Source: Hydrogenophaga sp.
GTDB taxonomy: Bacteria; Pseudomonadota; Gammaproteobacteria; Burkholderiales; Burkholderiaceae_C
Length of the DNA stretch: 64,000 nucleotides
Assembly: GCF_018780385.1 (NCBI RefSeq)
Contig: NZ_JADMJO010000003.1
Location: 496,001 to 560,000, forward strand
Direction: 5' to 3'
The position numbers and the translations under genes were made by a program. The notes beneath the pieces were generated by a model. That model had not been told where the DNA came from. It did no database searches and saw only the letters and a program-made list of their open reading frames with translations. Shown here piece by piece: positions 23,579 through 42,105 of this stretch; within the stretch, counting starts at the first letter, position 1, and every line of letters begins with the position of its first letter.

Positions 23579-23614
23579 TCACACTAGGCGCATGTGTGCA
23601 CAACTCTCTCGAAC

Positions 23615-24883
23615 ATGAAATCGGGCCTGAACTTTCTGGTGGCGGCCAAACGCTGCGAAATCGCCGAGCTGCAGCAGCTCGCGCTCACCAGTGCGTTGGT
23701 GAATGTGACCGGGCGTCTGGTGCATGCCCTGCAGCGCGAGCGAGGCCTGTCCAACCTGTTTCTCGGCTCACAGGGCCATCAGTTTGGCGAGATGCGCACG
23801 AACCAGATCAGGGAATCCCGGCAGATTGAAACTGAACTGCGCGCCTGCTTTGACGAGCTGGACACCGAGTCGGCCCTGGTGGGCAACGGCGCTCGCCTGT
23901 TCAGTCGCATCGCCTACGTGCTGCACGGGCTGGATGCGCTCGACGGTTTGCGCTCGTGCGTGCAGGCGCTGCAATGGACGACCCAGCAGGCCACCGAAGC
24001 CTATGTGCGGCTGATCTCGGGCCTGCTGGCCGTGGTGTTCGAAGCGGCGGACACCGCCAGCGATCCCGAGATCTCACGCTTGCTGGTGGCCTTGTTCAAC
24101 TTCATGCAAGGCAAGGAGTTCGCCGGCCAGGAGCGTGCGGCCGGGTCGGCGCTGTTCGCCGGGGGGCGCGCCGAGGCGGGCGACCAGCAGCGTCTGCTGC
24201 ACCTGATCGAGTCGCAGGAACGCTGCCTGGAGGTGTTCATCGAGTTTTCGAAAGCCCAGGCGGTGGAGCTGTGGCATGCCACCCAGGCCAGCGCCACACT
24301 GGCCGAGCTGGAACGGCTGCGCCGCGTGCTGTGCACCGCCGCCCACGGCTCACCGCTCAATGCCCAGATGAGCCAGGCGTGGTTCGACTGCTGCAGCCGG
24401 CGCATTGACCGCATGAAAACGGTGGAGGAGCGTCTGGCGCTGGACTTGTTGCAAGCCTGCGAGCAGAAGATCGTCGCGGCCCATGCCGAGCTGAACAGTT
24501 TTCACGCGCTGCAAACAGCCCCCGCCACCGAGGCGGACGTTCTGTCGTTCTTCCGGGCGCCGAACGCTCGGGACAGCAGCGGTTTCGGCACCGGCACCCA
24601 GAGTTACGGCCTTCACCTGGAGCGCTCGATCCTGGAACTGGTGCAGGAGCAGGCGCGGCGCCTGCAGACCATGAGCGAGGAGCTCGACACCGTGCGGGCC
24701 AGCCTCAACGAGCGCAAGCTGATCGAGCGCGCCAAGGGTCTGCTGATGGCACACCGCCACCTCAGCGAGGAAGACGCCCACAAGACCATCCGCCAGATGG
24801 CCATGAACCAGAACCGCCGGCTGATCGAGGTGGCCGAGGCCGTGCTGGCCATGGCCGACGTGCTGCCCGATCGGCAACGCTGA
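23615..24883 (+). CDS. nasR: NasR-like nitrate/nitrite-sensing antiterminator (NIT + ANTAR)
   Basis: 422-aa cytoplasmic regulator. The N-terminal two thirds (about 25-260) is an all-helical NIT domain with the typical motif LVHALQRERGLSNLFLGS; this family binds nitrate/nitrite in Klebsiella NasR. The C-terminus (about 360-415: LNERKLIERAKGLLMAHRHLSEEDAHKTIRQMAM) is an ANTAR domain that binds paired hexaloop RNA hairpins to block transcription termination. The gene is directly upstream of the nrt operon, whose leader contains such hairpins. The start ATG was chosen from the sigma-54 promoter position; no strong Shine-Dalgarno sequence is seen. Confidence 0.88.
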   Translation: MKSGLNFLVAAKRCEIAELQQLALTSALVNVTGRLVHALQRERGLSNLFLGSQGHQFGEMRTNQIRESRQIETELRACFDELDTESALVGNGARLFSRIAYVLHGLDALDGLRSCVQALQWTTQQATEAYVRLISGLLAVVFEAADTASDPEISRLLVALFNFMQGKEFAGQERAAGSALFAGGRAEAGDQQRLLHLIESQERCLEVFIEFSKAQAVELWHATQASATLAELERLRRVLCTAAHGSPLNAQMSQAWFDCCSRRIDRMKTVEERLALDLLQACEQKIVAAHAELNSFHALQTAPATEADVLSFFRAPNARDSSGFGTGTQSYGLHLERSILELVQEQARRLQTMSEELDTVRASLNERKLIERAKGLLMAHRHLSEEDAHKTIRQMAMNQNRRLIEVAEAVLAMADVLPDRQR

Positions 24884-25093: not shown

Positions 25094-25203
25094 GATTCGA
25101 GCCAACGGCGGCCCGGGTTTCGACAGTCTCCCCGACACGAGGACAACGGCGTCCATTTCCGGCTTGCGAAGCACAGCCACGGAAATGGGCGCCGTTGTGT
25201 TTT
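25094..25203 (+). promoter_or_regulatory. ANTAR-type dual-hexaloop leader and attenuator of the nrt operon
   Basis: Hairpin P1 (25094-25119) has the hexaloop AACGGC on a stem GAGCC/GGCCC with one A-C mismatch. Hairpin P2 (25141-25154) is GGAC-AACGGC-GTCC. Both loops have A at position 1 and G at position 4, as required for ANTAR RNA ligands. P2 overlaps the 5' arm of a 19-bp hairpin (25143-25161 with 25180-25198, one G-U) followed by TTTT, so P2 and the terminator-like stem are mutually exclusive. The inferred role is nitrate-dependent antitermination by the NasR-like or NasT-like protein. Confidence 0.8.
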
Positions 25204-25238: not shown

Positions 25239-26537
25239 ATGAACGCAGACACCACCGGCGCAACCGTTCCCCACGCCGCGACCGACACGACCACCGACAC
25301 CGCAGCGGCTTCGCGGCGCGACTTCATCAAGAAAAGCACCGCCATCGGCGGCGCCGCCTTCTTCTCCACGCTGGGTCACAGTGGCGTGTGGGCGGCCGGC
25401 TCCGATGCTCCCGAAAAGACCGAAGTCAAGATTGGCTTCATCCCGCTGACCGACTGCGCCAGCGTGGTGATGGCCGCTGAGCTCGGCATCGACAAGAAGT
25501 ACGGCGTGAAGATCGTGCCGACCAAGGAAGCCAGTTGGGCCGGTGTGCGCGACAAACTGGTCAATGGCGAACTCGACATGGCGCACGTGCTCTACGGCCT
25601 GATCTACGGCCTGCAGCTGGGCACCGCTGGCCCCAAGAAGGACATGGCGATCCTGATGAACCTGCAGCAGAACGGCCAGGCCATCACGCTGTCGAAGAAG
25701 CTCGCCGAAAAAGGCGCTGTGGACGGCCCCTCGCTCGCCAAATTGATGGCCAGCGAGAAGCGCGAATACACCTTCGCCCAGACCTTCCCCACCGGCACCC
25801 ACGCCATGTGGCTCTACTACTGGCTGGCCGCCGCCGGCATCGATCCGATGAAGGACGCGCGCGCCATCGTGGTGCCGCCGCCGCAGATGGTGGCCAACAT
25901 GCGCGTGGGCAACATGGACGGCTTCTGCGTGGGCGAGCCCTGGAACCACCGCGCCATCATGGACGGCATCGGCATCACCGCCAACACCACCCAGGACATC
26001 TGGAAGGACCACCCCGAGAAGGTGCTGGGCACGACGGCCGACTTCGTGGCCAAGAACCCCAACACGGCGCGCGCCGTGACGGCCGCCATCCTGGAAGCCG
26101 GCAAGTGGATCGACGCCGGTCTGCAGAACAAGAACAAGATGGCCGAGACGATCGCCCAGCGCGCCTATGTGAACACCGGCGTGGACGCGATCAACCAGCG
26201 CATCCTGGGCCGCTACCAGAACGGCATGGGCAAGACCTGGGACGACCCCAACCACATGAAGTTCTTCAACGACGGCCTGGCGAACTTCCCCTACCTGAGC
26301 GACGGCATGTGGTTCCTCACGCAGCACAAGCGCTGGGGCTTGCTCAAGTCGCACCCCGACTACCTGGCCGTGGCCAAACAGGTCAACCGCATCGACATCT
26401 TCAAGCAGGCCGCAGCGGCCAGCAAGACCTCGTTGCCCAAGTCCGAAATGCGCAGCGCCAAGTTCATCGACGGCGTGGTGTGGGACGGCAAGGACCCGGC
26501 GAAATACGCCGACAGCTTCAAGATCAACGCGGCCTGA
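25239..26537 (+). CDS. nrtA: Nitrate ABC transporter substrate-binding protein (NrtA/NasF family)
   Basis: 432-aa NrtA/CmpA-family periplasmic nitrate-binding protein. A twin-arginine signal (ASRRDFIKKSTAIGGAAFFS) occupies residues about 25-52, so it is exported folded through Tat. The mature part (KIGFIPLTDCASVVMAAELG) and FCVGEPWNHRAI match the family. The ATG at 25239 follows AAGGAG; the track start at 25164 lies inside the attenuator. It is the first gene of nrtA-nrtB-nrtD, behind a sigma-54 promoter and ANTAR leader. Specificity for nitrate is inferred from context. Confidence 0.92.
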   Translation: MNADTTGATVPHAATDTTTDTAAASRRDFIKKSTAIGGAAFFSTLGHSGVWAAGSDAPEKTEVKIGFIPLTDCASVVMAAELGIDKKYGVKIVPTKEASWAGVRDKLVNGELDMAHVLYGLIYGLQLGTAGPKKDMAILMNLQQNGQAITLSKKLAEKGAVDGPSLAKLMASEKREYTFAQTFPTGTHAMWLYYWLAAAGIDPMKDARAIVVPPPQMVANMRVGNMDGFCVGEPWNHRAIMDGIGITANTTQDIWKDHPEKVLGTTADFVAKNPNTARAVTAAILEAGKWIDAGLQNKNKMAETIAQRAYVNTGVDAINQRILGRYQNGMGKTWDDPNHMKFFNDGLANFPYLSDGMWFLTQHKRWGLLKSHPDYLAVAKQVNRIDIFKQAAAASKTSLPKSEMRSAKFIDGVVWDGKDPAKYADSFKINAA

Positions 26538-26564
26538 TCAGGCCTGCAGCACCGGAGAAACACC

Positions 26565-27473
26565 ATGGTCAGCGCCGTCTTTCATTCGCCTCTGGAGGGG
26601 CTCGCCTCCACCAAGACCGAGCCGACGACCACCGCTGCGGCGGTGCCCCGGCCGGCGCCTGCACCGGTGGCGCAGGTCAAGCGCGGCCGGGACCTGCGCT
26701 TCCTCTGGACCAACGTCTTGCCACCCGTGCTGGGCCTGGTCTTCCTCATCGCCGTGTGGGCGGTGGTGGCTGGCACCGGTGCGAGCGGCATTCCCACACC
26801 GCTGGAGACCTGGAAACAGGCGATCGAGGTGTTCTCCGATCCGTTCTACCAGGTGGGCCCGAACGACCAGGGCGTGGGCTGGAACGTGCTCATGTCGCTG
26901 CAGCGCGTGGCCATCGGCTTCGGCCTGGCCGCAGCGGTGGGCATCCCCGCGGGCTTTGCCATCGGCCGCTTCGAGTTCTTGAGCCGCATGTTCAATCCGC
27001 TCATCAGCCTGCTGCGCCCGGTGTCCCCACTGGCCTGGCTGCCGATCGGTCTGCTGGTCTTCAAGGGCGCCAACCCGGCGGCCATCTGGACCATCTTCAT
27101 CTGCTCCATCTGGCCCATGATCATCAACACCGCGGTGGGCGTACAGCGCGTGCCGCAGGACTACATGAACGTGGCGCGGGTGCTCAATCTGAGCGAATGG
27201 AAGATCTTCACCAAGATCCTGTTCCCCGCCGTGCTGCCCTACCTGCTGACCGGCGTGCGCCTGGCGGTGGGCACGGCCTGGCTGGTGATCGTGGCCGCCG
27301 AGATGCTGACCGGCGGCGTGGGCATCGGTTTCTGGATCTGGGACGAGTGGAACAACCTCAATGTGGCCAGCATCATCATCGCGATCTTCGTGATCGGCAT
27401 CGTGGGCCTGGTGCTCGAATTCGGCCTCATCAAGCTGGCCACCCTGTTCACGTTTGAGGAAGTCAAATCATGA
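26565..27473 (+). CDS. nrtB: Nitrate ABC transporter permease
   Basis: 302-aa inner-membrane permease of the NrtB/SsuC family with about six helices. The EAA-type loop NVARVLNLSEWKIFTKILFPAVLPYLLTGVR, which docks the ATPase, is clear near residue 205. The first 45 residues are a soluble Ala/Pro-rich leader. It is 27 bases after nrtA and overlaps the ATPase gene by four bases (ATGA). Confidence 0.92.
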   Translation: MVSAVFHSPLEGLASTKTEPTTTAAAVPRPAPAPVAQVKRGRDLRFLWTNVLPPVLGLVFLIAVWAVVAGTGASGIPTPLETWKQAIEVFSDPFYQVGPNDQGVGWNVLMSLQRVAIGFGLAAAVGIPAGFAIGRFEFLSRMFNPLISLLRPVSPLAWLPIGLLVFKGANPAAIWTIFICSIWPMIINTAVGVQRVPQDYMNVARVLNLSEWKIFTKILFPAVLPYLLTGVRLAVGTAWLVIVAAEMLTGGVGIGFWIWDEWNNLNVASIIIAIFVIGIVGLVLEFGLIKLATLFTFEEVKS

Positions 27474-28276
27474 GTCATGCATCCAAATACATCGAGATTC
27501 AGGGCGTCGAACAGACCTTCAAGACCAAGAAGGGCAATTTTCCTGCGCTGCGCGACATCAACCTGGCGGTGGCCAAAGGCGAGTTCGTCACGCTGATCGG
27601 CCACTCGGGCTGCGGCAAGTCCACCTTGCTCAACCTCATCGCCGGCCTGACCGTGCCCACCAGCGGCGTGTTGATCTGCGCCGACAAGGAGATTGTCGGG
27701 CCCGGCCCAGAGCGCGCGGTGGTGTTCCAGAACCACTCACTGCTACCGTGGCTCACCTGCTTCGAAAACGTCTATCTGGCGGTCGAACGCGTGTTCTCGA
27801 CCACCGAGACCAAGGCACAGCTCAAGGCCCGCACCGAGGCCGCGCTGGCCATGGTGGGCCTCACGCCCGCCGCCCAGAAACGGCCCGGTGAAATCTCTGG
27901 CGGCATGAAGCAGCGCGTGGGCATCGCCCGCGCCCTGTCGATGGAACCCAAGGTCTTGCTGATGGACGAGCCCTTCGGCGCGCTCGACGCCCTTACCCGC
28001 GCCAAACTGCAGGACGAGCTGCTCGAGATCGTGGCGCGCACGCACAGCACAGTGGTCATGGTCACGCACGACGTGGACGAAGCCGTGCTGCTGTCCGACC
28101 GCATCGTGATGCTCACCAACGGACCGGCCGCCACCATCGGCGAAGTGCTCACCGTGGACCTGCCGCGCCCGCGCAACCGCGTGGCCCTGGCCGACGAACC
28201 GCGCTACCAGCAATGCCGCAAGGCGGTGATCGACTTCCTCTACACACGCCAGGCGCACGTCGAAAAAGTCGCCTGA
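27470..28276 (+). CDS. nrtD: Nitrate ABC transporter ATP-binding protein
   Basis: 268-aa single-domain ABC ATPase. Walker A GHSGCGKSTLLN, signature ISGGMKQRVGIARAL, Walker B VLLMDEPFGALDA and the H-loop VMVTHDVDEAV are intact. It is NrtD/NasD-like, lacking the extra substrate-binding domain of cyanobacterial NrtC. It completes the importer with nrtA and nrtB. Confidence 0.92.
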   Translation: MSHASKYIEIQGVEQTFKTKKGNFPALRDINLAVAKGEFVTLIGHSGCGKSTLLNLIAGLTVPTSGVLICADKEIVGPGPERAVVFQNHSLLPWLTCFENVYLAVERVFSTTETKAQLKARTEAALAMVGLTPAAQKRPGEISGGMKQRVGIARALSMEPKVLLMDEPFGALDALTRAKLQDELLEIVARTHSTVVMVTHDVDEAVLLSDRIVMLTNGPAATIGEVLTVDLPRPRNRVALADEPRYQQCRKAVIDFLYTRQAHVEKVA

Positions 28277-28473: not shown

Positions 28474-29688
28474 ATGGCGGGTTTCCGTACGTTCCTGAAA
28501 GCAGGCCACAGCCCCACGCTGCTGGCCTCCTTCATCTACTTCACCTACTGCTGTGGCGTCTGGGTCACCAACGGGGCCATGGCCCCGTTCATCAAGGACT
28601 CGCTCAACCTGAGTCCGGCCCAGCTCGGCGTCATGCTCTCGGTGCCGATCTTTGCGGGCGCCCTGATGCGGTTTCCGCTGGGCATCCTCGCGCAGTACAT
28701 CGGCCGCAAGAACGCCACACTGGTGGAAATGGGCGGCATCGCACTCGCGCTGCTGTTCGGCTACTTCTACGTGGAGACCTTCAACCACCTGATCGCCATG
28801 GGCGTGCTGCTGGGCATTGCCGGCGCCAGCTTCGGTGTCGCGCTCTCGCTGGGCTCGGGTTCGTTCCCGGCGCGCTACAAGGGCCTGGCCATGGGTCTGG
28901 TGGGTGCGGGCAACGTGGGCACCTCGCTGTCGGCCCTGCTGGCGCCGCAACTGGCGCAAGCCTATGGCTGGAAGGCCGTGTACGGCATCGCCGCGCTGGG
29001 CCTCATGGTGCCGGTGCTGGTGATGATCTTCCTGGCCAAGGAACCCGATGACGTGGACAAACATGCTGGCCTGCGCGAACACGTCGCCTGCCTGTTCGAG
29101 AAGGACGGCTGGGCCTTCAGCGTCATCTACGCCGTCACATTCGGCGGTTTCATCGGCCTGGCCACCTTCCTGCCGAGCTACTACTACGACCAGTTCGGCG
29201 TGAGCAAGGTGCAGGCCGGTCAGCTCACCATGCTGGCGGCCTTCATGGGCGCGGCGCTGCGCATCTTCGGCGGCTGGATCTCCGACCACTGGGGCGGCAT
29301 CAACACCTTGACGACGGTGCTCGTCATCATCTCGGTCTCGCTGCTGGCCTGCGGCCTGGCCGGTGGTTCTCTGGTGATCACCACGCTGCTGATGATGTTG
29401 TGTTTCGCGGCACTGGGCGCGGGCAACGGCGCGCTGTTCCAGCTGGTGCCCCTGCGCTGGCCGCTGTCCACCGCCGTGGCCGGCTCCATGATCGGCGAGA
29501 TCGGTGCCCTCGGTGGGGGCTTGGTGCCCAACGCCATGGGCCTGTCGCGCCAGTACGCCGGCACCTACTTCTGGGGCTTCGCGCTGTTTGCGGTGCTCGC
29601 GCTGCTGGTGTTGCTGATGATGCGCTCGATGCAGATGCGATGGACGCGCACCTGGGCAGAGAAAGGTGGCCGCGCGCGCAGCGTGTGA
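28474..29688 (+). CDS. narK: NarK-family nitrate/nitrite transporter (MFS)
   Basis: 404-aa major facilitator of the nitrate-nitrite porter family with 12 hydrophobic segments. The glycine-rich NNP signatures GAGNVGTSLSALLAP near residue 145 and GAGNGALFQLVPLRWP near residue 315 are visible, as is the MFS loop LGILAQYIGRKNATLVE. It can import nitrate or exchange nitrite; in this assimilatory cluster import is likely (inference). It converges with the kinase/phosphatase gene, with only 7 bases between stops. Confidence 0.93.
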   Translation: MAGFRTFLKAGHSPTLLASFIYFTYCCGVWVTNGAMAPFIKDSLNLSPAQLGVMLSVPIFAGALMRFPLGILAQYIGRKNATLVEMGGIALALLFGYFYVETFNHLIAMGVLLGIAGASFGVALSLGSGSFPARYKGLAMGLVGAGNVGTSLSALLAPQLAQAYGWKAVYGIAALGLMVPVLVMIFLAKEPDDVDKHAGLREHVACLFEKDGWAFSVIYAVTFGGFIGLATFLPSYYYDQFGVSKVQAGQLTMLAAFMGAALRIFGGWISDHWGGINTLTTVLVIISVSLLACGLAGGSLVITTLLMMLCFAALGAGNGALFQLVPLRWPLSTAVAGSMIGEIGALGGGLVPNAMGLSRQYAGTYFWGFALFAVLALLVLLMMRSMQMRWTRTWAEKGGRARSV

Positions 29689-29695
29689 GATTGCC

Positions 29696-31453
29696 TTACT
29701 TCGGCAGAAACAGCAGCCAGTAGATCAACAACACATTGAACAAGGCGCTGAGACCCAGCAGCAGCTTCCACAGCATCGTCGGATCCCGCTGCAGCAGCGC
29801 CGATGCCGGCGGCATGGTCAGCGGTCGGGACGCACCGCGCTCCAGCGCCAGCAAAAACTCTTCCGCGGTCTCGAAGCGCAGCGACTGGTCGCGCGCCACG
29901 GCCTTCTGCACCACATGGTCCAGCCAGATCGGCACCTCGGGGTTGTGGCGGCTGGGCGGCGTCGGGTCGCGGTAGTAGCGGCCCACCTGGTAGGGCAGCA
30001 CCTGGCCATAGGGCAAGCGGGCGGTGAGCAACTGATAGAGCGTCACGCCCAGCGCGAAAAGATCGCTCCGGGCATCGGGCAGCTCCTTCGTCTCGGCGTC
30101 GGAGGCACCGGTTGCCTGCCGCGTGTTGTAGCCCCACTGCTCGGGGTTCACATAGCTCGGCGTGCCGGCGTGCAGCCGTCGCATGCTCTCGGGCTCGCGC
30201 CCGCTCAGGGCCACACCGAGATCGAGCACGCGCAGCACGCCGTCCTCGCCCTGGTGCAGATTGGCGGGCTTGATGTCGCGGTGAATCACACCCTGGCGGT
30301 GCATGCGGCCGAGCACCCGCAGGGTCTGCATGGCAATCTGCACCGCCTGGCCGGGCGCGAAGCGCTGTGACCGGTCCAGCATCTGCTGCAGGGTCTCGCC
30401 GCTGTGCCAGTCGTACAACAGGTAGTAGGCGCTGCGCGGCCGCTGCGTGGGCAGGCTCTGGTGCAGACACACCAGGTTGTCGGCCGCGCGCGAAGACTGC
30501 ATGCGCCGCGAGAGCCAGGCCTCGTGCGCGAGCATGGCGCGCTCGTCCTGGTCGTGCGCGCGCGCGGGGTGCAGGGTTTTGAGCGCATACAGCGTCTGCG
30601 TGGCGGGATCGCGCACCTGGTAGAGCAGGTTGATGCCGTTGTCGGCCACCGGCGCAGTGACGACGAAGCCGTCGATCAGGTCGCCCACCTTCAGGCGCGG
30701 CGCCATGGGCAGGGCGTGGGCCAGGCGGCTGGCGTCCTCCAGGTTGGGGTCGAGCAGGCCCAGCACACGCACCACCATGGCGGTGAGGTTGTCGTCGCTG
30801 CCCGCGGCCAGCGCCGCCTCCACCAACCGTTCGCAAGCGACCTGCGCTCGCACGGAAGGGTCGGCGCAGTCGGCGAGACGGCGCTCCGGCAACTTGCCAT
30901 GGACGCCGTCGGTGAGCAGCACGAAAATGTCGCCCACCTGCAGGTCGCCCTGCACATAGTCGACCACGAGGTGGTCTTCCAGGCCCACCGCGCGCAGCAG
31001 CTGGTGCCGCAGGTCGGGGTGGTTGACCACGTGGTCGTGCGTGAGGCGCAGCGTCTGGCCCTCGCGCAGCAAGTAGCAACGCGAATCGCCCACGTGGGCC
31101 AGCGTGTAGGACTGACCGCGCAGCACCAGCGCGGTGAGCGTGGTCAGGCCCATGGCGGGCTGGCGGCTTCGGTTGAGCCCGGCCAGCCAGGCGTTCTGCG
31201 CGCCGATGATGCGGTCCAGCGCCACCGTGGTGTCCCAGGTTTCGGGCGTGCTGTGGTAGTCGCGCACCAGGCTGGTCACCGTGGTCTGGGCCGCTTCCCG
31301 CCCCATGCCGCCGGTGCTCACTCCGTCGGCAATGGCCACGATGGAGCCCATGTCCTCTTGTCCCTCGGGCGGCAGCATGGCGGCGCAGAAGTCTTCGTTG
31401 TTCTCCTTGCGGCCCGCCAGACACACAAAGCCGATGTCGATGTCAAAGGCCAT
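29696..31453 (-). CDS. PP2C-type phosphatase / Ser-Thr protein kinase fusion with C-terminal membrane anchor
   Basis: 585 aa. Residues about 1-240 form a PPM/PP2C phosphatase with metal-binding motifs AIADGVSTGG, HVGDSRCYL, LLTDGV and GSDDNLTA. Residues about 265-535 form a Hanks-type kinase: the lysine of YALKTL, catalytic HRDIKPANL, DLG in place of DFG (VLDLGVALS), and GTPSYVNPEQ replacing APE. A canonical glycine-rich loop is not evident. A single helix (LLLGLSALFNVLLIYWLLF) ends the protein, probably tethering it to the inner membrane. It follows the NasT-like gene by 6 bases, so the two form an operon. The substrate is unknown; a role in nitrate control is inferred from context. Confidence 0.88.
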   Translation of the reverse strand: MAFDIDIGFVCLAGRKENNEDFCAAMLPPEGQEDMGSIVAIADGVSTGGMGREAAQTTVTSLVRDYHSTPETWDTTVALDRIIGAQNAWLAGLNRSRQPAMGLTTLTALVLRGQSYTLAHVGDSRCYLLREGQTLRLTHDHVVNHPDLRHQLLRAVGLEDHLVVDYVQGDLQVGDIFVLLTDGVHGKLPERRLADCADPSVRAQVACERLVEAALAAGSDDNLTAMVVRVLGLLDPNLEDASRLAHALPMAPRLKVGDLIDGFVVTAPVADNGINLLYQVRDPATQTLYALKTLHPARAHDQDERAMLAHEAWLSRRMQSSRAADNLVCLHQSLPTQRPRSAYYLLYDWHSGETLQQMLDRSQRFAPGQAVQIAMQTLRVLGRMHRQGVIHRDIKPANLHQGEDGVLRVLDLGVALSGREPESMRRLHAGTPSYVNPEQWGYNTRQATGASDAETKELPDARSDLFALGVTLYQLLTARLPYGQVLPYQVGRYYRDPTPPSRHNPEVPIWLDHVVQKAVARDQSLRFETAEEFLLALERGASRPLTMPPASALLQRDPTMLWKLLLGLSALFNVLLIYWLLFLPK

Positions 31454-31459
31454 GCGGCG

Positions 31460-32755
31460 TCACCCCATCAGCATCTGCATGCTGCGTTCGTATTCGGCCG
31501 AGAGCTGCTCGAAGGCTTCAAGCAGGCTTTCGCTGGCCGCCGCCAGGCCTTCGAGCCGCAGCAGCCGGTCGCGACCCGCGGGGCGCTGGATGTGGGCGGC
31601 ACCGGCGAGCACCTGCTCCCATTCCAGGGCCGCGGCGTCGAGCGTGCGGCGGATCTCGGGTGTGGACAGGGGCAGGCCGTTGAGCAAGGCCAGACCCGAC
31701 TCGAATTCCCGCTGCGCCCCGACCAGGGCAGCGTCACTGCCCGGCGCGCGCGCATCGGCCTCCACCAGCTCCATCAGCGCGCACTTGGCAAAACGCTGGG
31801 ACAGCATGCGCTGGCGCCCGGCGATGTTGAGCAGCTTCAGCGGCGGGGCCGAGCCCGCGCTCTCCAGGCTCGCCGTCAGGCGCTCGGCTTCCTGCAGCAG
31901 GCGCTCGGCGAGTTCGTCCACCGGCAGCACCTGCGCTGCGGCGGGCTTGCCCTTGAGGGCTGGCTTGAGGCGTTGCCAGGTGGCTTCCACCTGGGCCAGC
32001 AGGTCGCCGAAGGTGGGGGCCGAGAGTGTCTTGCCCAAGAGCGCGATGTTGGCGTCGATGCGCTGGATCGAATCGTCCAGCAGCGCCTGCTGCTGGCGCG
32101 TCTGCACCTCGGCCAGACGCAACAGGTACAGCTTGACCAGGCGCTGCGAGAGCATGCGCAACTGCCCGGCCCGGTTCACCCCTTCGGCGAAATGGGCCGA
32201 CTGGATGATGTGCTGCGACACCTGGCCCAAGCGCTGGTTGCTGTGCATGGAGGCGGTGCGCAGGATCTGGAAGGCGTCGTCGTCGGACACCTGCCGCGCG
32301 CGCATCAGGATGCCCTTGGCGCGCTCCACCATCTTGCGGTCCTCGAAACGCTGGGACACATCGCGCAGTTGCTCCTGCAGCGCCTGCTCGCGCCGAAAGC
32401 GCGCCTGCGCGAGGTGGATGAGCGGGCGCAGGCGCTGCGCTCCGTAACCGTTGACCACATAAGCGTGGATGCCGGCGGCCATGGCCTGTTCGATGTGGCC
32501 GGCATCGCTGTCGGTGGTGAACACGATCACCGGGCAGGGTGCGGTGTCGGCCAGCGCCTGCGTGGCCTTGAACAGTGCATCCGCGGGCGCCGACACCTCA
32601 CCGATCACCAGATCTGGTGCATGGCGCACGACGCCCTGCACCAGTTTGCTGCAGCCCTCTTCCTGCGCCAGGACATCGATGCCCATGGCCTCCAGGTCGA
32701 CTGCGAGGGGCAGCGTGGTGTGGGGACCGCTCCGAAAAACCAGCACAGATGTCAT
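31460..32755 (-). CDS. NasT-like regulator: degenerate receiver + ANTAR + two PilJ-N (NarX-type) sensor modules
   Basis: 431 aa, about twice the length of NasT. Residues 1-125 resemble a response-regulator receiver, but the N-terminal acidic pair is missing (VLVFRSGPH) and the phospho-Asp position is Glu53 (VIGEVSAP). Residues about 138-187 are ANTAR (DRKMVERAKGILMRARQVSDDDAFQIL). Two PilJ-N-type four-helix modules follow, each with the NarX-like box: NRAGQLRMLSQRLVK (194-208) and NIAGRQRMLSQRFAK (310-324). No membrane segment is seen. The ATG at 32755 was chosen; the track extends into the divergent promoter region. It is divergent from nirB and probably controls RNA attenuation in response to nitrate or nitrite (inference). 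Confidence 0.85.
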   Translation of the reverse strand: MTSVLVFRSGPHTTLPLAVDLEAMGIDVLAQEEGCSKLVQGVVRHAPDLVIGEVSAPADALFKATQALADTAPCPVIVFTTDSDAGHIEQAMAAGIHAYVVNGYGAQRLRPLIHLAQARFRREQALQEQLRDVSQRFEDRKMVERAKGILMRARQVSDDDAFQILRTASMHSNQRLGQVSQHIIQSAHFAEGVNRAGQLRMLSQRLVKLYLLRLAEVQTRQQQALLDDSIQRIDANIALLGKTLSAPTFGDLLAQVEATWQRLKPALKGKPAAAQVLPVDELAERLLQEAERLTASLESAGSAPPLKLLNIAGRQRMLSQRFAKCALMELVEADARAPGSDAALVGAQREFESGLALLNGLPLSTPEIRRTLDAAALEWEQVLAGAAHIQRPAGRDRLLRLEGLAAASESLLEAFEQLSAEYERSMQMLMG

Positions 32756-32866: not shown

Positions 32867-32882
32867 TGGCACACGTTTTGCA
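32867..32882 (+). promoter_or_regulatory. Sigma-54 (-24/-12) promoter of the nirB operon
   Basis: TGGCAC-ACGTT-TTGCA is a full consensus match. The predicted start is about 32893, which coincides with the first stem-loop of the leader. It gives a leader of about 236 nt before nirB. Confidence 0.82.
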
Positions 32883-32891
32883 TGGTTCACC

Positions 32892-33035
32892 TCAGACGTG
32901 ACGAAGCGTCTGACCCCGACCGCAGTGTCGCGGGACTGCTCACAACGACGTGCGCAGCGAGACAACGGGGCCCGCCATGTGGCGCGCCTCAGCCCGGCTT
33001 CTCGGCCGGAACAACCGAATATCCCTGTCTTTTTT
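32892..33035 (+). promoter_or_regulatory. Candidate ANTAR-type leader of nirB
   Basis: Hairpin 1 (32892-32913) has a 7-bp stem TCAGACG/CGTCTGA plus a T-G pair closing GACGAA, which has G4 but not A1. Hairpin 2 (32936-32957) is CTGCTCAC-AACGAC-GTGCGCAG, eight positions with one T-C mismatch and an A1/G4 loop. Their 22-base separation resembles the nrt leader. Downstream, AGACA (32960) can pair with TGTCT just before TTTTTT (33030-33035), with GGG/CCC added across a bulge, giving a possible terminator that does not overlap hairpin 2 directly. Confidence 0.5.
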
Positions 33036-33076: not shown

Positions 33077-33091
33077 TGGCACGGGGTATGC
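33077..33091 (+). promoter_or_regulatory. Possible second sigma-54 promoter of nirB, downstream of the leader hairpins
   Basis: TGGCAC-GGGGT-ATGC has a perfect -24 half and GC at the right -12 spacing (first T of TTGC is A). The predicted start is about 33103, giving a 26-nt leader that would lack the ANTAR-type hairpins. Confidence 0.35.
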
Positions 33092-33128
33092 ACCTGACCC
33101 CTAGCGAATCACAACTGGAGTAGCCGCG

Positions 33129-35594
33129 ATGAAGAAATCAAAACTGGTGATGGTGGGCAACGGCATGGCCGGTGTGCGCACGATTGAGGAGCTGCTCAAG
33201 ATCGCGCCCGACTTTTACGACATCACGGTGTTCGGCGCAGAGCCCCACCCCAACTACAACCGCATCCTGCTCTCGCCGGTGCTCGCGGGTGAGCAGACGC
33301 TGGACGAGATCGTGCTCAACGACTGGGCCTGGTACACCGAGAACGGCGTCACGCTGCACGCAGGCAAGACCGTGACCGAGGTGGACCGCATCAAGCGCAT
33401 CGTGCGCGCCACGGATGCGGACGGCAGCGTGATCGAGGCACCGTACGACCGCCTCATCATGGCCACCGGCTCCAACCCCTTCATGCTGCCGCTGCCCGGC
33501 AAGGATCTGCAAGGCGTGCTGGCCTACCGCGACATCGCCGACACGCAGGCCATGATCGACGCAGCCACCAAATACAAACACGCGGTCGTCATCGGCGGCG
33601 GCCTGCTCGGCCTGGAAGCGGCCAACGGGCTGATGAAGCGCGGCATGACGGTGAGCGTGGTGCACGTGGCGCCCTGGCTCATGGAGCGCCAGCTCGACGA
33701 CGTGGCGGGCAAGCTGCTGCAGCAGTCGCTGGAGACGCGCGGCATGAAATTCCTGATCGGCGCGCAGACGCAGGAGCTGGTGGGCAACGAAGAAGGCCGC
33801 GTGAAGGCGATCCGCTTCAAGGACGGCACCGAGCTGCCCGCCGACCTGGTGGTGATGGCCGTGGGCATCCGCCCCAACACCGCGCTGGCCGAGAGCATGC
33901 GCCTGCACGTGAACAAGGGCATCGTGGTCAGCGACACGCTGCAGACCGTGACCGACCCGCGCATCTACGCGGTGGGCGAATGCGCGGCGCACCGCGGCAT
34001 CGCCTACGGCCTGGTGGCGCCGCTGTTCGAGCAGGGCAAAGTGCTGGCCACGCACCTGGCCGAGTTCGGCATTGGCCGCTACACCGGCTCGCTCACCTCG
34101 ACCAAGCTCAAGGTCACCGGCATCGACCTGTTCTCCGCCGGCAACTTCACCGGCGGCGCCGACACCGAAGAGATCGTGATGAGCGATCCTTCGGGCGGCG
34201 TTTACAAGAAACTGGTGATCCAGGGCGACAAGCTGGTGGGCGCCTGCCTGTACGGCGACACGGTGGACGGCTCCTGGTACTTCAAGCTACTGCGCGACGG
34301 CCGCAGCGTGGCCGACATCCGCGACAAGCTGATGTTCGGCGAATCCAACATCGGCGACGTGGGCCACCAGGGCCAGAGCAAGGCCTCGGCCATGGGCGAT
34401 TCCGACGAGGTGTGCGGCTGCAATGGCGTGACCAAAGGTGCGATCTGCAAGGCCATCAAGGACAAGGGCCTGTTCACGCTCGAAGAAGTGCGCAAGCAGA
34501 CCAAGGCCAGCGCCTCCTGCGGCTCGTGCACCGGTCTGGTCGAGCAGATCCTGATGTTCACCGCGGGTGGCGACTACTCGGCCACGCCGAAGATGAAAGC
34601 CATGTGCGGCTGCACCGAACACGGCCACGCAGCGGTGCGCGAAGCCATCCGCACGCCGCTGCCCGACGGGGGCAAGCTGCTGACCACGGCCCAGGTGTTT
34701 GCCCACCTGAACTGGAAGACGCCCAACGGCTGCGCGAGCTGCCGCCCCGCCATCAACTACTACCTGATCAGCACCTGGCCCAAGGAGGCCAAGGACGATC
34801 CGCAATCGCGCTACATCAACGAGCGCTCGCACGCCAACATCCAGAAAGACGGCACGTATTCGGTGATCCCGCGCATGTGGGGCGGTGAGACCACGGCCGA
34901 CGAGCTGCGCCGCATCGCCGACGCGGTGGACAAGTACAAGATCCCCACCGTGAAGGTCACGGGCGGCCAGCGCATCGACCTGTTGGGCGTGAAGAAGGAA
35001 GACCTGGTCAATGTCTGGAAAGACATCGGCATGCCGTCGGGTCACGCGTACGCCAAGGCCCTGCGAACGGTGAAAACCTGCGTGGGCTCCGAGTGGTGCC
35101 GCATGGGCACCCAGGACAGCACCCAGATGGGCAAGGACCTGGAGCGCGCCATGTGGCGCATGTACGCGCCGCACAAGGTGAAGTTCGCCGTCTCGGGCTG
35201 CCCGCGCAACTGCGCCGAGGCCGGCATCAAGGACGTGGGCGTCATCGGTGTCGACTCCGGCTGGGAGATGTACATCGCCGGCAACGGCGGCATCAAGACC
35301 GAGGTGGCGCACTTCTTCGTCAAGGTGAAGACGGCGGCCGAGGTGCTGGAGTACACCGGCGCATTCTGCGAGCTCTACCGCCAGGAGGGCTGGTACCTGG
35401 AGCGCACGGTGCACTACGTGAACCGCGTCGGCCTGGACTACGTGAAGAAGCGCATTCTGGAAGACCACGAAGGCCGCAAGGCCCTCTGGGAGCAGCTGCA
35501 GTTTGCGCTGGACGGCGAGCCAGACCCGTGGTTCGACTTCAAGGAAGCCGCGGTGGACACACGCCAGTTCGAACCCGTGAGCACCCTCTCGTGA
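33129..35594 (+). CDS. nirB: Assimilatory nitrite reductase large subunit
   Basis: 821-aa sirohaem enzyme reducing nitrite to ammonium with NAD(P)H. The N-terminal FAD/NAD(P)H module starts KLVMVGNGMAGVRTIEELL and has a second Rossmann motif VVIGGGLLGLEAANGL. A BFD-like [2Fe-2S] domain (CGCNGVTKGAIC ... ASCGSC) lies near residue 430. The C-terminal sirohaem/[4Fe-4S] ligands are in VGSEWCRMG and SGCPRNCAEAG. The ATG at 33129 follows CTGGAG. The small subunit nirD is two genes downstream. It is likely under the sigma-54/ANTAR-type leader upstream. Confidence 0.97.
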   Translation: MKKSKLVMVGNGMAGVRTIEELLKIAPDFYDITVFGAEPHPNYNRILLSPVLAGEQTLDEIVLNDWAWYTENGVTLHAGKTVTEVDRIKRIVRATDADGSVIEAPYDRLIMATGSNPFMLPLPGKDLQGVLAYRDIADTQAMIDAATKYKHAVVIGGGLLGLEAANGLMKRGMTVSVVHVAPWLMERQLDDVAGKLLQQSLETRGMKFLIGAQTQELVGNEEGRVKAIRFKDGTELPADLVVMAVGIRPNTALAESMRLHVNKGIVVSDTLQTVTDPRIYAVGECAAHRGIAYGLVAPLFEQGKVLATHLAEFGIGRYTGSLTSTKLKVTGIDLFSAGNFTGGADTEEIVMSDPSGGVYKKLVIQGDKLVGACLYGDTVDGSWYFKLLRDGRSVADIRDKLMFGESNIGDVGHQGQSKASAMGDSDEVCGCNGVTKGAICKAIKDKGLFTLEEVRKQTKASASCGSCTGLVEQILMFTAGGDYSATPKMKAMCGCTEHGHAAVREAIRTPLPDGGKLLTTAQVFAHLNWKTPNGCASCRPAINYYLISTWPKEAKDDPQSRYINERSHANIQKDGTYSVIPRMWGGETTADELRRIADAVDKYKIPTVKVTGGQRIDLLGVKKEDLVNVWKDIGMPSGHAYAKALRTVKTCVGSEWCRMGTQDSTQMGKDLERAMWRMYAPHKVKFAVSGCPRNCAEAGIKDVGVIGVDSGWEMYIAGNGGIKTEVAHFFVKVKTAAEVLEYTGAFCELYRQEGWYLERTVHYVNRVGLDYVKKRILEDHEGRKALWEQLQFALDGEPDPWFDFKEAAVDTRQFEPVSTLS

Positions 35595-36379
35595 ACATCA
35601 GTCGCAGAACCATCATCGCCGCCGCCGCGGGGCTCCCGCTGTTGAACGCGCGGGCCCAGGTGCTGGACCTCAACGACGCCATCAACAAGGCCGGCCGCCA
35701 ACGCATGCTGTCGCAACGCATGGGCAAGGGCTGGCTGGCGCTGGTGCACAAGACCGAAAGCGGCAGCGCTCAGGCGGTGCTCGACAAGTCGATGGCCTTG
35801 TTCGACCGCCAGCTCGTCGAGCTCAAGGCCTTCGCGCCCTCGACCGACATCCGCGACACCTACGTCAAGCTCGAAGCGGCCTGGAGCGACTACAAGACCG
35901 CGCTCGTGGGCGCCACGCCGGGCAAGCCGGGCGCGGCCGCCGTGCTGCAGGCCGATGCGCGGGTGCTGGCGCTGGCCCACCAGGGCACGCTGCAGTACGA
36001 AGCGGCCTCGGGTCGCCCGGTGGGCAAGCTGGTCAACGTGGCCGGGCGCCAGCGCATGCTCTCGCAGCGCATGGCCAAGTTCTACTTCGCCGCCACGCTG
36101 CCCATCGACGTGCCCACCGCCACGGCTGAAATCGGCAAGGCGCGCACCGAATTCCTGAGCGCCATGGAGCTGCTGCGCAACGCCCCCGAGGCCACCGAAC
36201 GCATCCGCTCGGAACTGCAACTGGCCGATGGCCAGTGGTTCTTTTTCGACCAGGCGCTGCAGCGCATGCAAACCGCTGGCGCCGCCGCCAAAACGCTGTC
36301 CGACGTGTTCGTGACGAGTGAAAACCTGCTCAGCGTCATGGACCGGGTCACCGGTCTGTACGCCGCCATCAAAACCTGA
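35591..36379 (+). CDS. Exported double PilJ-N (NarX-type sensor module) protein
   Basis: 262 aa, with no enzymatic or DNA-binding domain. The N-terminus MNISRRTIIAAAAGLPLLNARAQ looks like a short Tat-type signal peptide, so the product is probably periplasmic. It contains two copies of the PilJ-N box: KAGRQRMLSQRMGK (about 33-46) and NVAGRQRMLSQRMAK (about 149-163), each starting a helical bundle. I start it at GTG 35591, which overlaps the nirB stop as GTGA; the track runs further upstream through nirB. It sits between nirB and nirD, so it is made with the reductase. A nitrate/nitrite-binding role is inferred. Confidence 0.8.
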   Translation: MNISRRTIIAAAAGLPLLNARAQVLDLNDAINKAGRQRMLSQRMGKGWLALVHKTESGSAQAVLDKSMALFDRQLVELKAFAPSTDIRDTYVKLEAAWSDYKTALVGATPGKPGAAAVLQADARVLALAHQGTLQYEAASGRPVGKLVNVAGRQRMLSQRMAKFYFAATLPIDVPTATAEIGKARTEFLSAMELLRNAPEATERIRSELQLADGQWFFFDQALQRMQTAGAAAKTLSDVFVTSENLLSVMDRVTGLYAAIKT

Positions 36380-36393
36380 GGACTGGAAGCATC

Positions 36394-36777
36394 ATGAGTC
36401 AATGGAAGCCCATCTGCCGCGTCGACGACATCCCCGTGCTGGGTTCGCGCCGTGTGGCGCGCGAGCAAGGCCTGGACGTGGCCGTGTTCCGCAACGACCA
36501 GAACGAGGTGTTCGCCCTGCTCGACCGCTGCCCGCACAAGGGCGGCCCGCTCTCGCAAGGCATCGTGTTCGGCACCAGCGTGGCCTGCCCACTGCACAAC
36601 TGGACCATCGGCCTGTGCACCGGCCAGGCCGCCGCGCCCGACGAAGGCTGCACGCCGAAATTCGCGGTGAAGGTGGAAGATGGCCAGGTGTTCCTGGATG
36701 CGAACGAACTGGCCACCCAGGCCACCGATCTGACCCGCCCGATCGCCGGCCCGGCACGCCGAACCGTCACCGCATGA
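36394..36777 (+). CDS. nirD: Nitrite reductase small subunit
   Basis: 127-aa Rieske-type [2Fe-2S] protein partnering NirB. The ligands are visible in DRCPHKGGPLSQG and ACPLHNWTIGL, the C-x-H ... C-x2-H pattern. The length is typical. The stop overlaps the nasA start by four bases (ATGA 36774-36777). Confidence 0.95.
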   Translation: MSQWKPICRVDDIPVLGSRRVAREQGLDVAVFRNDQNEVFALLDRCPHKGGPLSQGIVFGTSVACPLHNWTIGLCTGQAAAPDEGCTPKFAVKVEDGQVFLDANELATQATDLTRPIAGPARRTVTA

Positions 36778-39551
36778 ACCCGACCACCACCCGCTCAACC
36801 TGCCCCTACTGCGGCGTGGGCTGCGGGGTGCTGATCGACAGTGTGGGCAGCCAGATCACCGACGTGCGCGGCGATCCCGATCACCCGGCCAACTTCGGCA
36901 AGCTCTGCACCAAGGGCCAGACGCTGCACCTCACCGCGTCGCCCGCGATCGCGCTGCAGACACGGCTGCTGCAACCCATGCAGCGCCTGCAACGCGGCGC
37001 ACCCGCGCAGCCCCTGGCCTGGGACGCCGCGCTCGACCTCGCCACCGAGCGCTTTGCGTCGGTCATCGAAAGCCATGGCCCCGATGCGGTGGGCTTCTAC
37101 ATCAGCGGCCAGTTGCTCACCGAGGACTACTACGTCTTCAACAAACTGGCCAAGGGCCTGATCGGCACCAACAACGTCGACACCAACTCACGCCTGTGCA
37201 TGAGCAGTGCGGTGGCCGGCTACAAGCTCACGCTGGGCGCCGACGCGCCGCCTGCCTGCTACGACGACGTGAACCACGCCAGTTGCCTGTTCATCGTCGG
37301 CAGCAACGCGGCCTTTGCGCACCCGGTGCTGTTCCGCCGCATCGAAGAAGCGAAGAAGGCCAACCCGGCCATGAAGGTGATCGTGGCCGACCCGCGCCGC
37401 ACCGACACCGCCGGCTTCGCCGACCTCTACCTGCCGCTGCAACCCGGCAGCGACGTGATGCTGTTCCACGGCCTGCTGCACATCATGCTGTGGGAAGGCT
37501 GGCTGGATGCGGCCTACATCGCCGCGCACACCACCGGGTTCGATGCACTCAAGGCGCTGGTGCGCGAGTACACGCCCGAGCACGTGGCGCAGGCCTGCGG
37601 CGTGCCGAAGGAAGACCTGTTCACAGCCGCGCAATGGTTTGCGCAGTCGCCTGCCACGCTCAGTCTCTACTGCCAGGGCCTGAACCAGAGCAGCAGCGGC
37701 ACCGCGAAGAACGCCACCTTGATCAACCTGCACCTGGCCACCGGCCAGATCGGCAAGCCCGGCGCCGGCCCCTTCAGCCTGACCGGCCAGCCCAACGCCA
37801 TGGGCGGGCGCGAAGTGGGTGGCCTGGCCAACCTGCTCAGCGCCCACCGCGACCTGGCCAACCCGCAGCACCGCGCCGAAGTGGCCGCGCTCTGGGGCGT
37901 GCCCTCGGTGCCCGAGAAGCCGGGCAAGAGCGCGGTGGAGATGTTCCAGGCCGCGGCCGACGGCGAGATCAAGGCGCTGTGGATCGCCTGCACCAACCCG
38001 GCCCAGTCCATGCCCGACCAAGCCACCGTGCGCCGCGCGCTGCAGCGCGCCGAGTTCGTGGTGGTGCAGGAGGCCTATGCCACGGCCGCCACCTGCGACT
38101 TCGCCGACCTGCTGCTGCCCGCCACCACCTGGGGCGAGAAGGACGGCACCGTGACCAACAGCGAGCGCCGCATCAGCCGCGTGCGCCCGGCCGTGACCGC
38201 GCCAGGTGAGTCCCGCCACGACTGGCGCATCGTGGTCGACTTCGCGCAGCGGCTCGAAGCCCGCTTGCGGCCCAACGAGGCCACGCTGTTTCCCTACCCG
38301 TCACCCGAGCCCATCTGGAACGAACACCGCGAATCCACCCGCGGGCGCGACCTCGACATCACTGGCCTGAGCTACGCCATGCTGGAACAACAAGGCCCGC
38401 AACAATGGCCGATGCGCACCGGTGAGACCGTGGGCCGGGAACGCCTGTACGAAGACGGCATCTTCCCCACGCCCGACGGACGCGCCCGTTTTGCCGCCCT
38501 GCCCTTCGTGCCGCTGGCCGAGCCGCGCGAATCGCGCTACCCCTTCTCGCTCACCACCGGCCGCCTGCGCGACCAGTGGCACGGCATGACGCGCACCGGC
38601 ACGCTGGGCCGCCTGTTCGGCCACGTGGCCGAGCCGGCGGTACAACTCAACCCGCAAGACATGGTCCGCCGCGGCTTGAAAGAAGGCGATCTGGTGCACG
38701 TGACCAGCAAGCGCGGATCCATCCTGGTGCCGTTGCACGGCTCGGCCGACATCGGCCTGTCGCAGGCTTTCATCGCCATGCACTGGGGCGCCGAATACCT
38801 CAGTGGTCTCAGCAGCACCGGCACGGCGCTGGCGGGCGTGAACGCGCTCACCACCTCGGCCTACTGCCCCTCGTCCAAGCAGCCTGAGCTCAAGCACGCG
38901 GCGGTGAAAGTGCTCAAGGCCGAGCTGCCCTGGACACTGCTGGCCATGGCCTGGCTGCCCGAGGCCGGCGCTTTAAGCGCCCTGCAAGGCCTGCGCGAAC
39001 TCATGGCGCAGTTTCCGTTTGCCTCGTGCGTGCCGTTCGGCAGAGACCGCACCGGTGTGCTGTTCCGCGCGGCTGCGCACGATGCGCCCGACACAGCCCT
39101 CATGGAGCGCATCGAGGATCTGCTGGGCCTGAACACACCGGATGCCCTGCGCTACGCCGACAAGCGCCTGGGCCAACGCCGCGCCGCACGGCTGGTGCGG
39201 GTGGGTGAGGTCACGCAGCTCGACGGTTTCATGCTCGCTGGCGACACGCGCGCCGAGGCCTGGCTCAAGCCGCTGCTGCAGGACGAACTGCCCGCCGACG
39301 CCTACGGTCGCCGCCTGCTGATGCCGGGTGCCAAGCCGCCGGTGGCCATCGAGGCCAAAGGCCGGCAGATCTGCACTTGTTTCAACGTGACCGACCTGGC
39401 CATCACCGAGCGGCTCACCACCTGCGAGGGCAGCGAGGACGAGCGCCTGGCCACCCTGCAGGCCAGCCTGCGTTGCGGGACCAACTGCGGCTCCTGCGTG
39501 CCCGAACTCAAACGCCTCGTGCGCGCCACCCCGGCGTTGCTGGCCGCCTGA
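36774..39551 (+). CDS. nasA: Assimilatory nitrate reductase catalytic subunit
   Basis: 925-aa molybdenum bis-MGD enzyme reducing nitrate to nitrite in the cytoplasm. The N-terminal [4Fe-4S] motif CPYCGVGCGVLI is at residues 10-21, with a further ligand in KLCTKG. A C-terminal BFD-like [2Fe-2S] domain (CTCFNVTD ... RCGTNCGSC) is present, as in Klebsiella NasA. The track begins at 36318 inside the preceding genes; ATG 36774 overlaps nirD. It needs molybdenum cofactor; mog lies 10 kb downstream. No separate electron-transfer subunit gene (NasB type) is seen in the window. Confidence 0.95.
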   Translation: MNPTTTRSTCPYCGVGCGVLIDSVGSQITDVRGDPDHPANFGKLCTKGQTLHLTASPAIALQTRLLQPMQRLQRGAPAQPLAWDAALDLATERFASVIESHGPDAVGFYISGQLLTEDYYVFNKLAKGLIGTNNVDTNSRLCMSSAVAGYKLTLGADAPPACYDDVNHASCLFIVGSNAAFAHPVLFRRIEEAKKANPAMKVIVADPRRTDTAGFADLYLPLQPGSDVMLFHGLLHIMLWEGWLDAAYIAAHTTGFDALKALVREYTPEHVAQACGVPKEDLFTAAQWFAQSPATLSLYCQGLNQSSSGTAKNATLINLHLATGQIGKPGAGPFSLTGQPNAMGGREVGGLANLLSAHRDLANPQHRAEVAALWGVPSVPEKPGKSAVEMFQAAADGEIKALWIACTNPAQSMPDQATVRRALQRAEFVVVQEAYATAATCDFADLLLPATTWGEKDGTVTNSERRISRVRPAVTAPGESRHDWRIVVDFAQRLEARLRPNEATLFPYPSPEPIWNEHRESTRGRDLDITGLSYAMLEQQGPQQWPMRTGETVGRERLYEDGIFPTPDGRARFAALPFVPLAEPRESRYPFSLTTGRLRDQWHGMTRTGTLGRLFGHVAEPAVQLNPQDMVRRGLKEGDLVHVTSKRGSILVPLHGSADIGLSQAFIAMHWGAEYLSGLSSTGTALAGVNALTTSAYCPSSKQPELKHAAVKVLKAELPWTLLAMAWLPEAGALSALQGLRELMAQFPFASCVPFGRDRTGVLFRAAAHDAPDTALMERIEDLLGLNTPDALRYADKRLGQRRAARLVRVGEVTQLDGFMLAGDTRAEAWLKPLLQDELPADAYGRRLLMPGAKPPVAIEAKGRQICTCFNVTDLAITERLTTCEGSEDERLATLQASLRCGTNCGSCVPELKRLVRATPALLAA

Positions 39552-41307: not shown

Positions 41308-41391
41308 TTCCGCGCTCTCGCGCACCGCGCTGCGGGGCAGGCTGAGCGAGCCACGTTGGTGCGCACGACGTCGGCAGCCCACGAACTGCGG

Positions 41392-41406
41392 TGGCCCGGC
41401 GATTGC
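41392..41406 (+). promoter_or_regulatory. Possible sigma-54 promoter of the mini-chemoreceptor gene
   Basis: TGGCCC-GGCGA-TTGC keeps GG/GC spacing with one deviation in the -24 half. The predicted start, 41418, is one base before ATG 41419, so the mRNA would be leaderless; this may equally be a chance match. Confidence 0.3.
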
Positions 41407-41418
41407 TTGGTGTCCTGC

Positions 41419-42105
41419 ATGACATCACTCACCGCTCACTCCACCGCCCTCCATCGCAATGACACACCGGCCCACATCGCGGGTCTCTCGCTGGTCAACC
41501 TCGCGGCGCGTCAGCGCATGCTGTCGCAACGCATGATCCTGCAGACCGTGCTGGCCGCTCACGGTGACACCGGGCGGCTAGCGGCCGCGCAACGCAGCTT
41601 GCAGATGTTCACCGAAAGCCAGCAGCACCTGCTGACCACCGCCGCGCACCTGGAGCCCGCCAGCGCCCGCAAGATCACCGACACCTACCAGGGCACGCGC
41701 GGCGTCGGCACCGTGGTGCAGGCATTCATGCAGCTCGTGCGCAGCGCACTCGATCAGATCGAAGCCGCCAGTCCGCGCGCGAGTGCGTCAGCTGCCGAGC
41801 TGGTTGGCCACACCGACCGAATCCTCGAAGCCCTCAACACTGCCACCACCGCCTTCGACGATGTCGCCAGGCTGCGCTCCGACGCCATGATGAAAGAGCT
41901 GGCAGGCATCGTCGACGACATCCAGAGCGTGGCCAAGGAAGCCAAGGTGGTGAGCTTCAACGCGCAAGTGATGGCCGCGCGGGCCGGACAGCACGGCCGT
42001 GAATTCGCGGTGGTCGCCAATGTCCTGTCGGACATCACCGGCGAAATCGACAGGCTCACCAGAAAGGCCGCGGTGCTCGCGGAGCGAAGCAGAAGCAACG
42101 GCTGA
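41419..42105 (+). CDS. Soluble mini-chemoreceptor: PilJ-N module plus MCP signalling tip
   Basis: 228 aa with no membrane helix. Residues about 20-120 carry a PilJ-N module (LVNLAARQRMLSQRMILQ at 25-42). Residues about 165-215 resemble the hairpin tip of methyl-accepting proteins (AKVVSFNAQVMAARAGQHG, then FAVVANVLSDITGEIDRL), but the normally long coiled coils with methylation helices are missing. The ATG at 41419 was chosen; the track start is a TTG 63 bases upstream. It follows cobA by 111 bases. It may signal nitrate to a Che-like pathway or simply be a scaffold; the function is unknown. Confidence 0.78.
   Translation: MTSLTAHSTALHRNDTPAHIAGLSLVNLAARQRMLSQRMILQTVLAAHGDTGRLAAAQRSLQMFTESQQHLLTTAAHLEPASARKITDTYQGTRGVGTVVQAFMQLVRSALDQIEAASPRASASAAELVGHTDRILEALNTATTAFDDVARLRSDAMMKELAGIVDDIQSVAKEAKVVSFNAQVMAARAGQHGREFAVVANVLSDITGEIDRLTRKAAVLAERSRSNG

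Follow-up and report, generated by a model that had tools for sequence, protein, structure and literature searches.

The window, a stretch of 64,000 nucleotides from a Hydrogenophaga sp. genome, holds a nitrate-assimilation cluster in which one gene, starting at an ATG, encodes a 431-amino-acid fusion of a pseudo-receiver, an ANTAR domain and two PilJ bundles; an earlier note on this DNA had placed the open reading frame correctly (Table 1). The gene stands head-to-head with nirB, and in nearly every readable locus (about 40) the fusion gene likewise faces away from narK or nirB, the leading gene of the nitrate-assimilation set; where nrtABD was found, a gene for NasR or NasT often lies before it. 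The gene for a combined PP2C phosphatase and Ser/Thr kinase directly follows the fusion gene in Hydrogenophaga-type and Polaromonas-type loci, and in this window the two are likely co-transcribed. In most fusion loci a PP2C-kinase gene lies near the nitrate-assimilation genes, although its position varies. Overlooked by the earlier note was a second nitrate regulator of the cluster, a NasR-type NIT-ANTAR protein. The source genome (5.38 Mb), in which the window covers C77:496001-560000, encodes three ANTAR proteins, namely the fusion, this NIT-ANTAR protein and, elsewhere, an AmiR-like protein that takes its label from an adjacent gene for an AmiC-like binding protein. In addition, positions 41356-42105 (+) encode a small protein in which a single PilJ-like box, LVNLAARQRMLSQR, has Ala in place of Gly and precedes a methyl-accepting-chemotaxis-like helix; the protein resembles a soluble mini-receptor and sits in the nitrate/sirohaem gene cluster.

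Table 1. Features of the fusion locus and the surrounding nitrate cluster, in window coordinates.
Feature	Position	Strand	Basis or remark
NasR-type NIT-ANTAR protein, second nitrate regulator of the cluster	23594..24883	+	7 kb from the fusion gene, just before nrtA
nrtA leader, ANTAR-type hairpins, hexaloops AACGGC (25104) and AACGGC (25145)	25094..25203	+	
nrtABD nitrate ABC transporter; NrtA with Tat signal	25239..28276	+	
MFS transporter	28474..29688	+	narK-type label from cluster position
PP2C phosphatase and Ser/Thr kinase in one protein	29696..31453	-	6 bp 3' of the fusion gene
Fusion: pseudo-receiver, ANTAR and two PilJ bundles	31460..32755	-	ORF, Pfam, AlphaFold
PilJ bundle 2, residues 304-430	31466..31846	-	motif and AlphaFold
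PilJ box 2, LNIAGRQRMLSQR, residues 309-321	31793-31831	-	
PilJ bundle 1, residues 185-301	31853..32203	-	Pfam and AlphaFold
PilJ box 1, VNRAGQLRMLSQR, residues 193-205	32141-32179	-	
ANTAR domain, residues 133-184	32204..32359	-	Pfam
Degenerate receiver, residues 1-110, without acidic pocket or conserved phospho-acceptor	32426..32755	-	
Sigma-54-type promoter, TGGCACACGTTTTGCA, 5' of hairpin 1	32867..32882	+	consensus match; position conserved across loci
Two-hairpin nirB leader, hexaloops GACGAA (32900) and AACGAC (32944), 44 nt apart	32891..32958	+	
nirB-type assimilatory nitrite reductase, heading the divergent operon	33129..35594	+	
Exported double-PilJ protein	35591..36379	+	Pfam; between nirB and the nitrate reductase gene
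Assimilatory nitrate reductase (molybdopterin)	36318..39551	+	true start 3' of the listed ORF start

Pfam models matched both the ANTAR domain (60.6 bits, cutoff 27.3) and the PilJ modules (two stretches, 72 bits, cutoff 26.6) of the fusion, as they did in all 26 homologues of alignment A2; the Response_reg model reached 21.2 bits over residues 21-110, under its cutoff of 30.2, and was matched in 7 of the 26. These matches and the motifs described below bear out the earlier description of a NasT-related receiver-ANTAR protein joined to a pair of PilJ modules in which the nitrate-binding signature is preserved. The same note had reported a receiver that has lost its acidic pocket and phospho-site and carries Glu at the acceptor position. 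The pocket is indeed lost, with Arg8 and Ser9 in its place, and position 53 is Glu; however, Glu is not conserved, occurring in just 3 of the 26 homologues in a column that also holds Trp (8), His (6), Asp (2), Tyr (2) and other residues. Because this column varies, Glu53 is not a conserved phosphomimic, and we ruled out that role and regard the residue as incidental. Judged from these residues, the domain appears to be a pseudo-receiver, a structural remnant whose phosphorylation is very unlikely in a family without a conserved acceptor, in agreement with the proposal that phosphorylation is bypassed. The AlphaFold model of the whole fusion (pLDDT 90.1) predicts that the final helix of ANTAR and the opening helix of bundle 1, which carries the box VNRAGQLRMLSQR, form a single helix, residues 176-214.

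PilJ domains that bind nitrate have a published signature, the N-box (PMC6381276), used here in the form [IVL]-[ND]-x-A-G-x-Q-R-M-L-[ST]-Q. Bundle 2 carries an exact match, LNIAGRQRMLSQ, starting at residue 309, and box 1 deviates from it solely by L for Q, at a position where nitrate-sensing kinases most often have L (77% of sequences). Both G-x-x-R motifs of the sensor are nearly invariant over 43 homologues: G197, R200 and R316 are invariant in alignments A1 and A2, G313 is invariant in A1 and kept in at least 90% of A2, and the second motif is lost in a few deep homologues (L025, L125). As the receiver dominated the Foldseek search with the full model, the sensor was modelled separately (residues 185-431; pLDDT 91.5, pTM 0.90), and its eight helices were predicted to form two four-helix PilJ bundles, the outcome of a structure-prediction check that the earlier note had itself suggested. 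Among 350,542 PDB chains the top Foldseek match was NasR (4akk), over both bundles (TM 0.67, probability 1.00), and McpN ranked fifth (TM 0.79 on target, rmsd 2.6); the E-values of 0.09-0.2 are not significant taken alone, and the ranking is therefore supportive rather than proof. The PilJ chemoreceptor, a double-PilJ sensor that does not bind nitrate (PMC6381276), has its two modules arranged differently and gave a TM of 0.28.

Homology between the sensor and the NIT domain of NasR was considered and rejected, since Pfam found no NIT domain (PF08376) in the fusion and hhalign of the sensor against NIT returned a probability of 0.2%; the likeness lies in the fold arrangement only. A profile of the fusion family searched against the PDB matched McpN (6gcv) at E 4e-10 and also PilJ. 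The modules, which had been called NarX-type, resemble McpN and exported double-PilJ proteins more closely than they do NarX. In support of this, the profile of the exported double-PilJ protein encoded beside nirB aligns full-length with the fusion sensor (hhalign probability 99.95%, E 2e-38), making this protein a possible source of the sensor module, or one of shared origin. The exported protein has two N-boxes and may be a periplasmic nitrate-binding protein; its relatives lie beside nirB in several genera, and tandem sets occur in other genomes (G121).

In NasR, substitution of R340, K347, W362, R366 or N373 abolishes or weakens RNA binding (PMC7496416). Residues R140, R145, K147, F162, R166 and N173 of the fusion correspond to R340, K345, K347, W362, R366 and N373 of NasR, and on this alignment the RNA-contact residues are kept in the fusion ANTAR domain. 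Across the divergent intergenic region, the sigma-54-type promoter and the two hairpins that follow it form an arrangement that recurs beside the fusion in many genera, with a hairpin spacing of 44-46 nt and hexaloops that have A or G at position 1 (a relaxed A1) and G at position 4; in the leaders of the Variovorax group, a derived clade, hairpin 1 alone is clearly retained. Over 16 leaders of the nirB family, 8 of 15 pairs were compensatory, and the covariation score was 0.377, compared to 0.216 for shuffled and at most 0.142 for slid controls. The leaders had been chosen by a hairpin scan and part of the pairing signal therefore reflects selection, so that weight should be placed just on these controls and on the matches outside the training set (L085, L104 and L107, and more weakly L092 and L093). 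Searched genome-wide, the leader model gave one strong match, before nirB (E 1.2e-9), the next being at 0.05. Of the three leaders proposed in the earlier note, those of nrtA and nirB are well supported and that of narK is weak, and just the nirB leader matches the family model.

Several further observations concern these regions. A second sigma-54-like promoter, TGGCACGGGGTATGCA, lies at 33077-33092 (+), directly before nirB and 3' of the leader, with similar sites in many loci; nirB may thus also be transcribed without its leader. Directly after hairpin 2, five loci (L089, L112, L108, L102, L103) carry TGTGCCTC(C), a stretch complementary to the GGAG...CAC/CATCATG start region that lies downstream; this start is that of a short upstream ORF in L089, L112, L102 and L103. 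A scan for sigma-70 promoters found nothing, and Rfam returned sub-threshold matches only, among them P11, a Pseudomonas sRNA family, which overlaps the nrtA leader at E 0.27 and is a hint only.

We propose that the fusion responds to nitrate or nitrite as a one-component RNA-binding regulator, parallel to NasR in function and built differently, a reading to which we assign a probability of about 0.7, and that the neighbouring nitrate-use genes are probably switched on by it with no separate sensor protein. Packing of the two PilJ bundles on one another in a single chain would resemble that in the NIT domain of NasR, and a single nitrate would sit between their two G-x-x-R motifs, as in the McpN or NarX dimer. 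Since the last ANTAR helix continues into the motif-bearing helix of bundle 1, nitrate could move the ANTAR face, and its binding would reposition or uncover the RNA-binding surface through this shared helix. Transcription of the leader would begin at the sigma-54 (nitrogen-limitation) promoter, and the fusion would bind the two-hairpin leader of the divergent nirB operon, or elsewhere of the narK nitrate-assimilation operon, and allow its expression; the receiver would need no phosphate. A fuller picture, which we hold tentatively and with the odds somewhat against it, is that of an independently evolved nitrate riboregulator in which the PilJ pair rebuilds a NIT-like single site linked by one helix to ANTAR, served by a dedicated sigma-54 leader, using a mechanism other than intrinsic-terminator antitermination and working alongside NasR or NasT in the same cell.

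The output step could take more than one form. Binding of the leader may act on translation or on Rho-dependent termination, by changing how accessible the ribosome-binding site is, either that of narK or that of a short upstream ORF, a possibility that we take seriously without favouring it. No strong intrinsic terminator was seen after the hairpins in the fusion-adjacent leaders, whereas many nrtA leaders have one, and for this reason antitermination is doubtful for the fusion leader. In the window, hairpin 2 of the nrtA leader overlaps the 5' arm of a strong terminator; this type of leader differs from that of the fusion, is found beside NasR or NasT genes and gave no match to the fusion-family model. 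A TGTGCCTCC-like stretch also recurs right after hairpin 2 and, in several loci, is able to pair with GGAG..CACATG start regions, although it is displaced in Hydrogenophaga-type leaders. Known ANTAR control of nitrate genes is nevertheless by antitermination, and the nirB leader in the window does have a U-run at 33030 with a possible weak stem. The earlier notion of a one-protein nitrate-sensing antiterminator thus keeps its fused sensor, but a protein of this kind was already known and the antitermination is in doubt.

The ligand itself bears on a second alternative, in which the PilJ pair senses some other small molecule and nitrate control is left to NasR here and to NasT in other genomes. 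NasR or NasT is present in most fusion genomes as well, and nitrate is bound by some PilJ domains, not all (PMC6381276); we nonetheless consider this alternative unlikely, given the conserved N-box and G-x-x-R motifs, a gene order that always places the fusion with nitrate genes, and genomes in which the fusion is the sole nitrate-type ANTAR protein. In G047, G140 and G068, the fusion is kept with narK, nirB and nasC, and NrtA, NasS, NasT and NIT-ANTAR were not found, these absences being less firm for G068 because that genome is 94% complete with 6% contamination. A regulator with a nitrate-type sensor could also bind RNA targets elsewhere, leaving the intergenic palindromes as DNA operator sites. 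The dyad symmetry of the hairpins and their place within a divergent promoter region would suit such operators, yet the hairpins lie just 3' of the sigma-54 -12 element, within the transcript expected from that promoter, hairpin 1 is closed by a U-G pair in 11 of the 16 leaders, which a DNA palindrome does not favour, and loop positions 1 and 4 resemble the A1 and G4 of the ANTAR target rule (PMC7496416), all of which makes operators distinctly improbable.

As the earlier note had stated, the adjacent NrtA bears a Tat signal and the source genome yielded no cytoplasmic NasS; none was found in 19 other fusion genomes searched either, the matches in the 20 genomes being NrtA or another ABC substrate-binding protein. 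A second NrtA-like protein (G115 and G134) was considered as a NasS candidate and rejected, as it is an ABC substrate-binding protein beside an NrtB-like permease. NasT is elsewhere held by NasS (PMC3795266), but with no such cytoplasmic protein seen in these genomes and no conserved acceptor in the receiver, it is highly improbable that the fusion is a NasT relative in need of an unseen partner, whether a divergent NasS or a kinase. In four Burkholderiales loci (L094, L097, L100, L122), NasT directly precedes a signal-bearing NrtA and NasS was not found beside it, so that NasT may also work without NasS there.

Of 151 genomes from one Burkholderiales family, about 21 carry a full-length fusion and many of the others have NasT or separate double-PilJ proteins; at E 1e-40 the fusion was absent from about 366 genomes of the class outside its own genus. 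Named carriers are Hydrogenophaga, Polaromonas, Rhizobacter, Methylibium, Ramlibacter, Azohydromonas, Variovorax, Aquabacterium and Mitsuaria, and the closest named relative is a protein of Hydrogenophaga sp. 2FB (82% identity). One contig labelled Beijerinckiaceae (alphaproteobacterial) carries the fusion and leader beside a different MFS transporter gene resembling narK, which suggests transfer or a binning question. In a tree of receiver-ANTAR sequences the fusions form one clade beside NasT (support 0.635), a placement that fits a single fusion event. In the literature searched, which lay mostly outside the subscription journals, we found no published description of ANTAR and PilJ in one protein; databases probably already list the architecture, since the McpN paper notes that PilJ domains occur in transcriptional regulators (PMC6381276). 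The general idea is not new, NasR being known already as a one-protein nitrate-sensing antiterminator (PMC7496416), but the build is, and we regard the fusion as a real and conserved variant of the one-component nitrate RNA regulator, one that has apparently not been described before. If our reading is right, RNA comes under direct nitrate control through a second architecture, parallel to that of NasR, and NasS becomes dispensable in part of the Burkholderiales. As a single soluble protein, the fusion would have its nitrate pocket and its RNA-binding face connected along one helix, and a genome holding two differently built nitrate regulators and two leader types offers a natural case for comparing them.

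Among known systems, the receiver-ANTAR proteins EutV, Rv1626 and AmiR have a receiver-ANTAR half that appears from the model to fold like that of the fusion, but they lack a PilJ sensor. They are controlled by phosphorylation or by a partner, and AmiR has a non-phosphorylated pseudo-receiver. NasT of the NasS-NasT systems shares the receiver and ANTAR domains, and the fusion clade is its sister; unlike NasT, a protein of about 190-215 amino acids with no further domain, the fusion adds a tandem PilJ sensor of about 245 residues, has no NasS that we found and lacks a conserved phospho-acceptor. The exported double-PilJ proteins of nirB operons have the same tandem PilJ arrangement, but they are exported and have no ANTAR domain. 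The PilJ domain of McpN (PDB 6gcv; PMC6381276) shares the N-box, the G-x-x-R motif and the bundle fold with the fusion; it is a dimerising periplasmic chemoreceptor domain, whereas the fusion has two modules in one cytoplasmic chain. NasR of Klebsiella oxytoca (NIT-ANTAR, PDB 4akk; PMC7496416) differs in that the fusion places its sensor C-terminally, as two PilJ domains without detectable sequence relation to NIT, carries a pseudo-receiver, has Phe at residue 162 in place of Trp362, as in non-NIT ANTAR proteins, and is associated with a different leader family. Nevertheless, both proteins combine a nitrate sensor (a predicted one in the fusion) made of two packed helical bundles with an ANTAR domain in one chain, have the same RNA-binding residues and are linked to a two-hairpin leader before nitrate genes, which for the fusion is a putative target.
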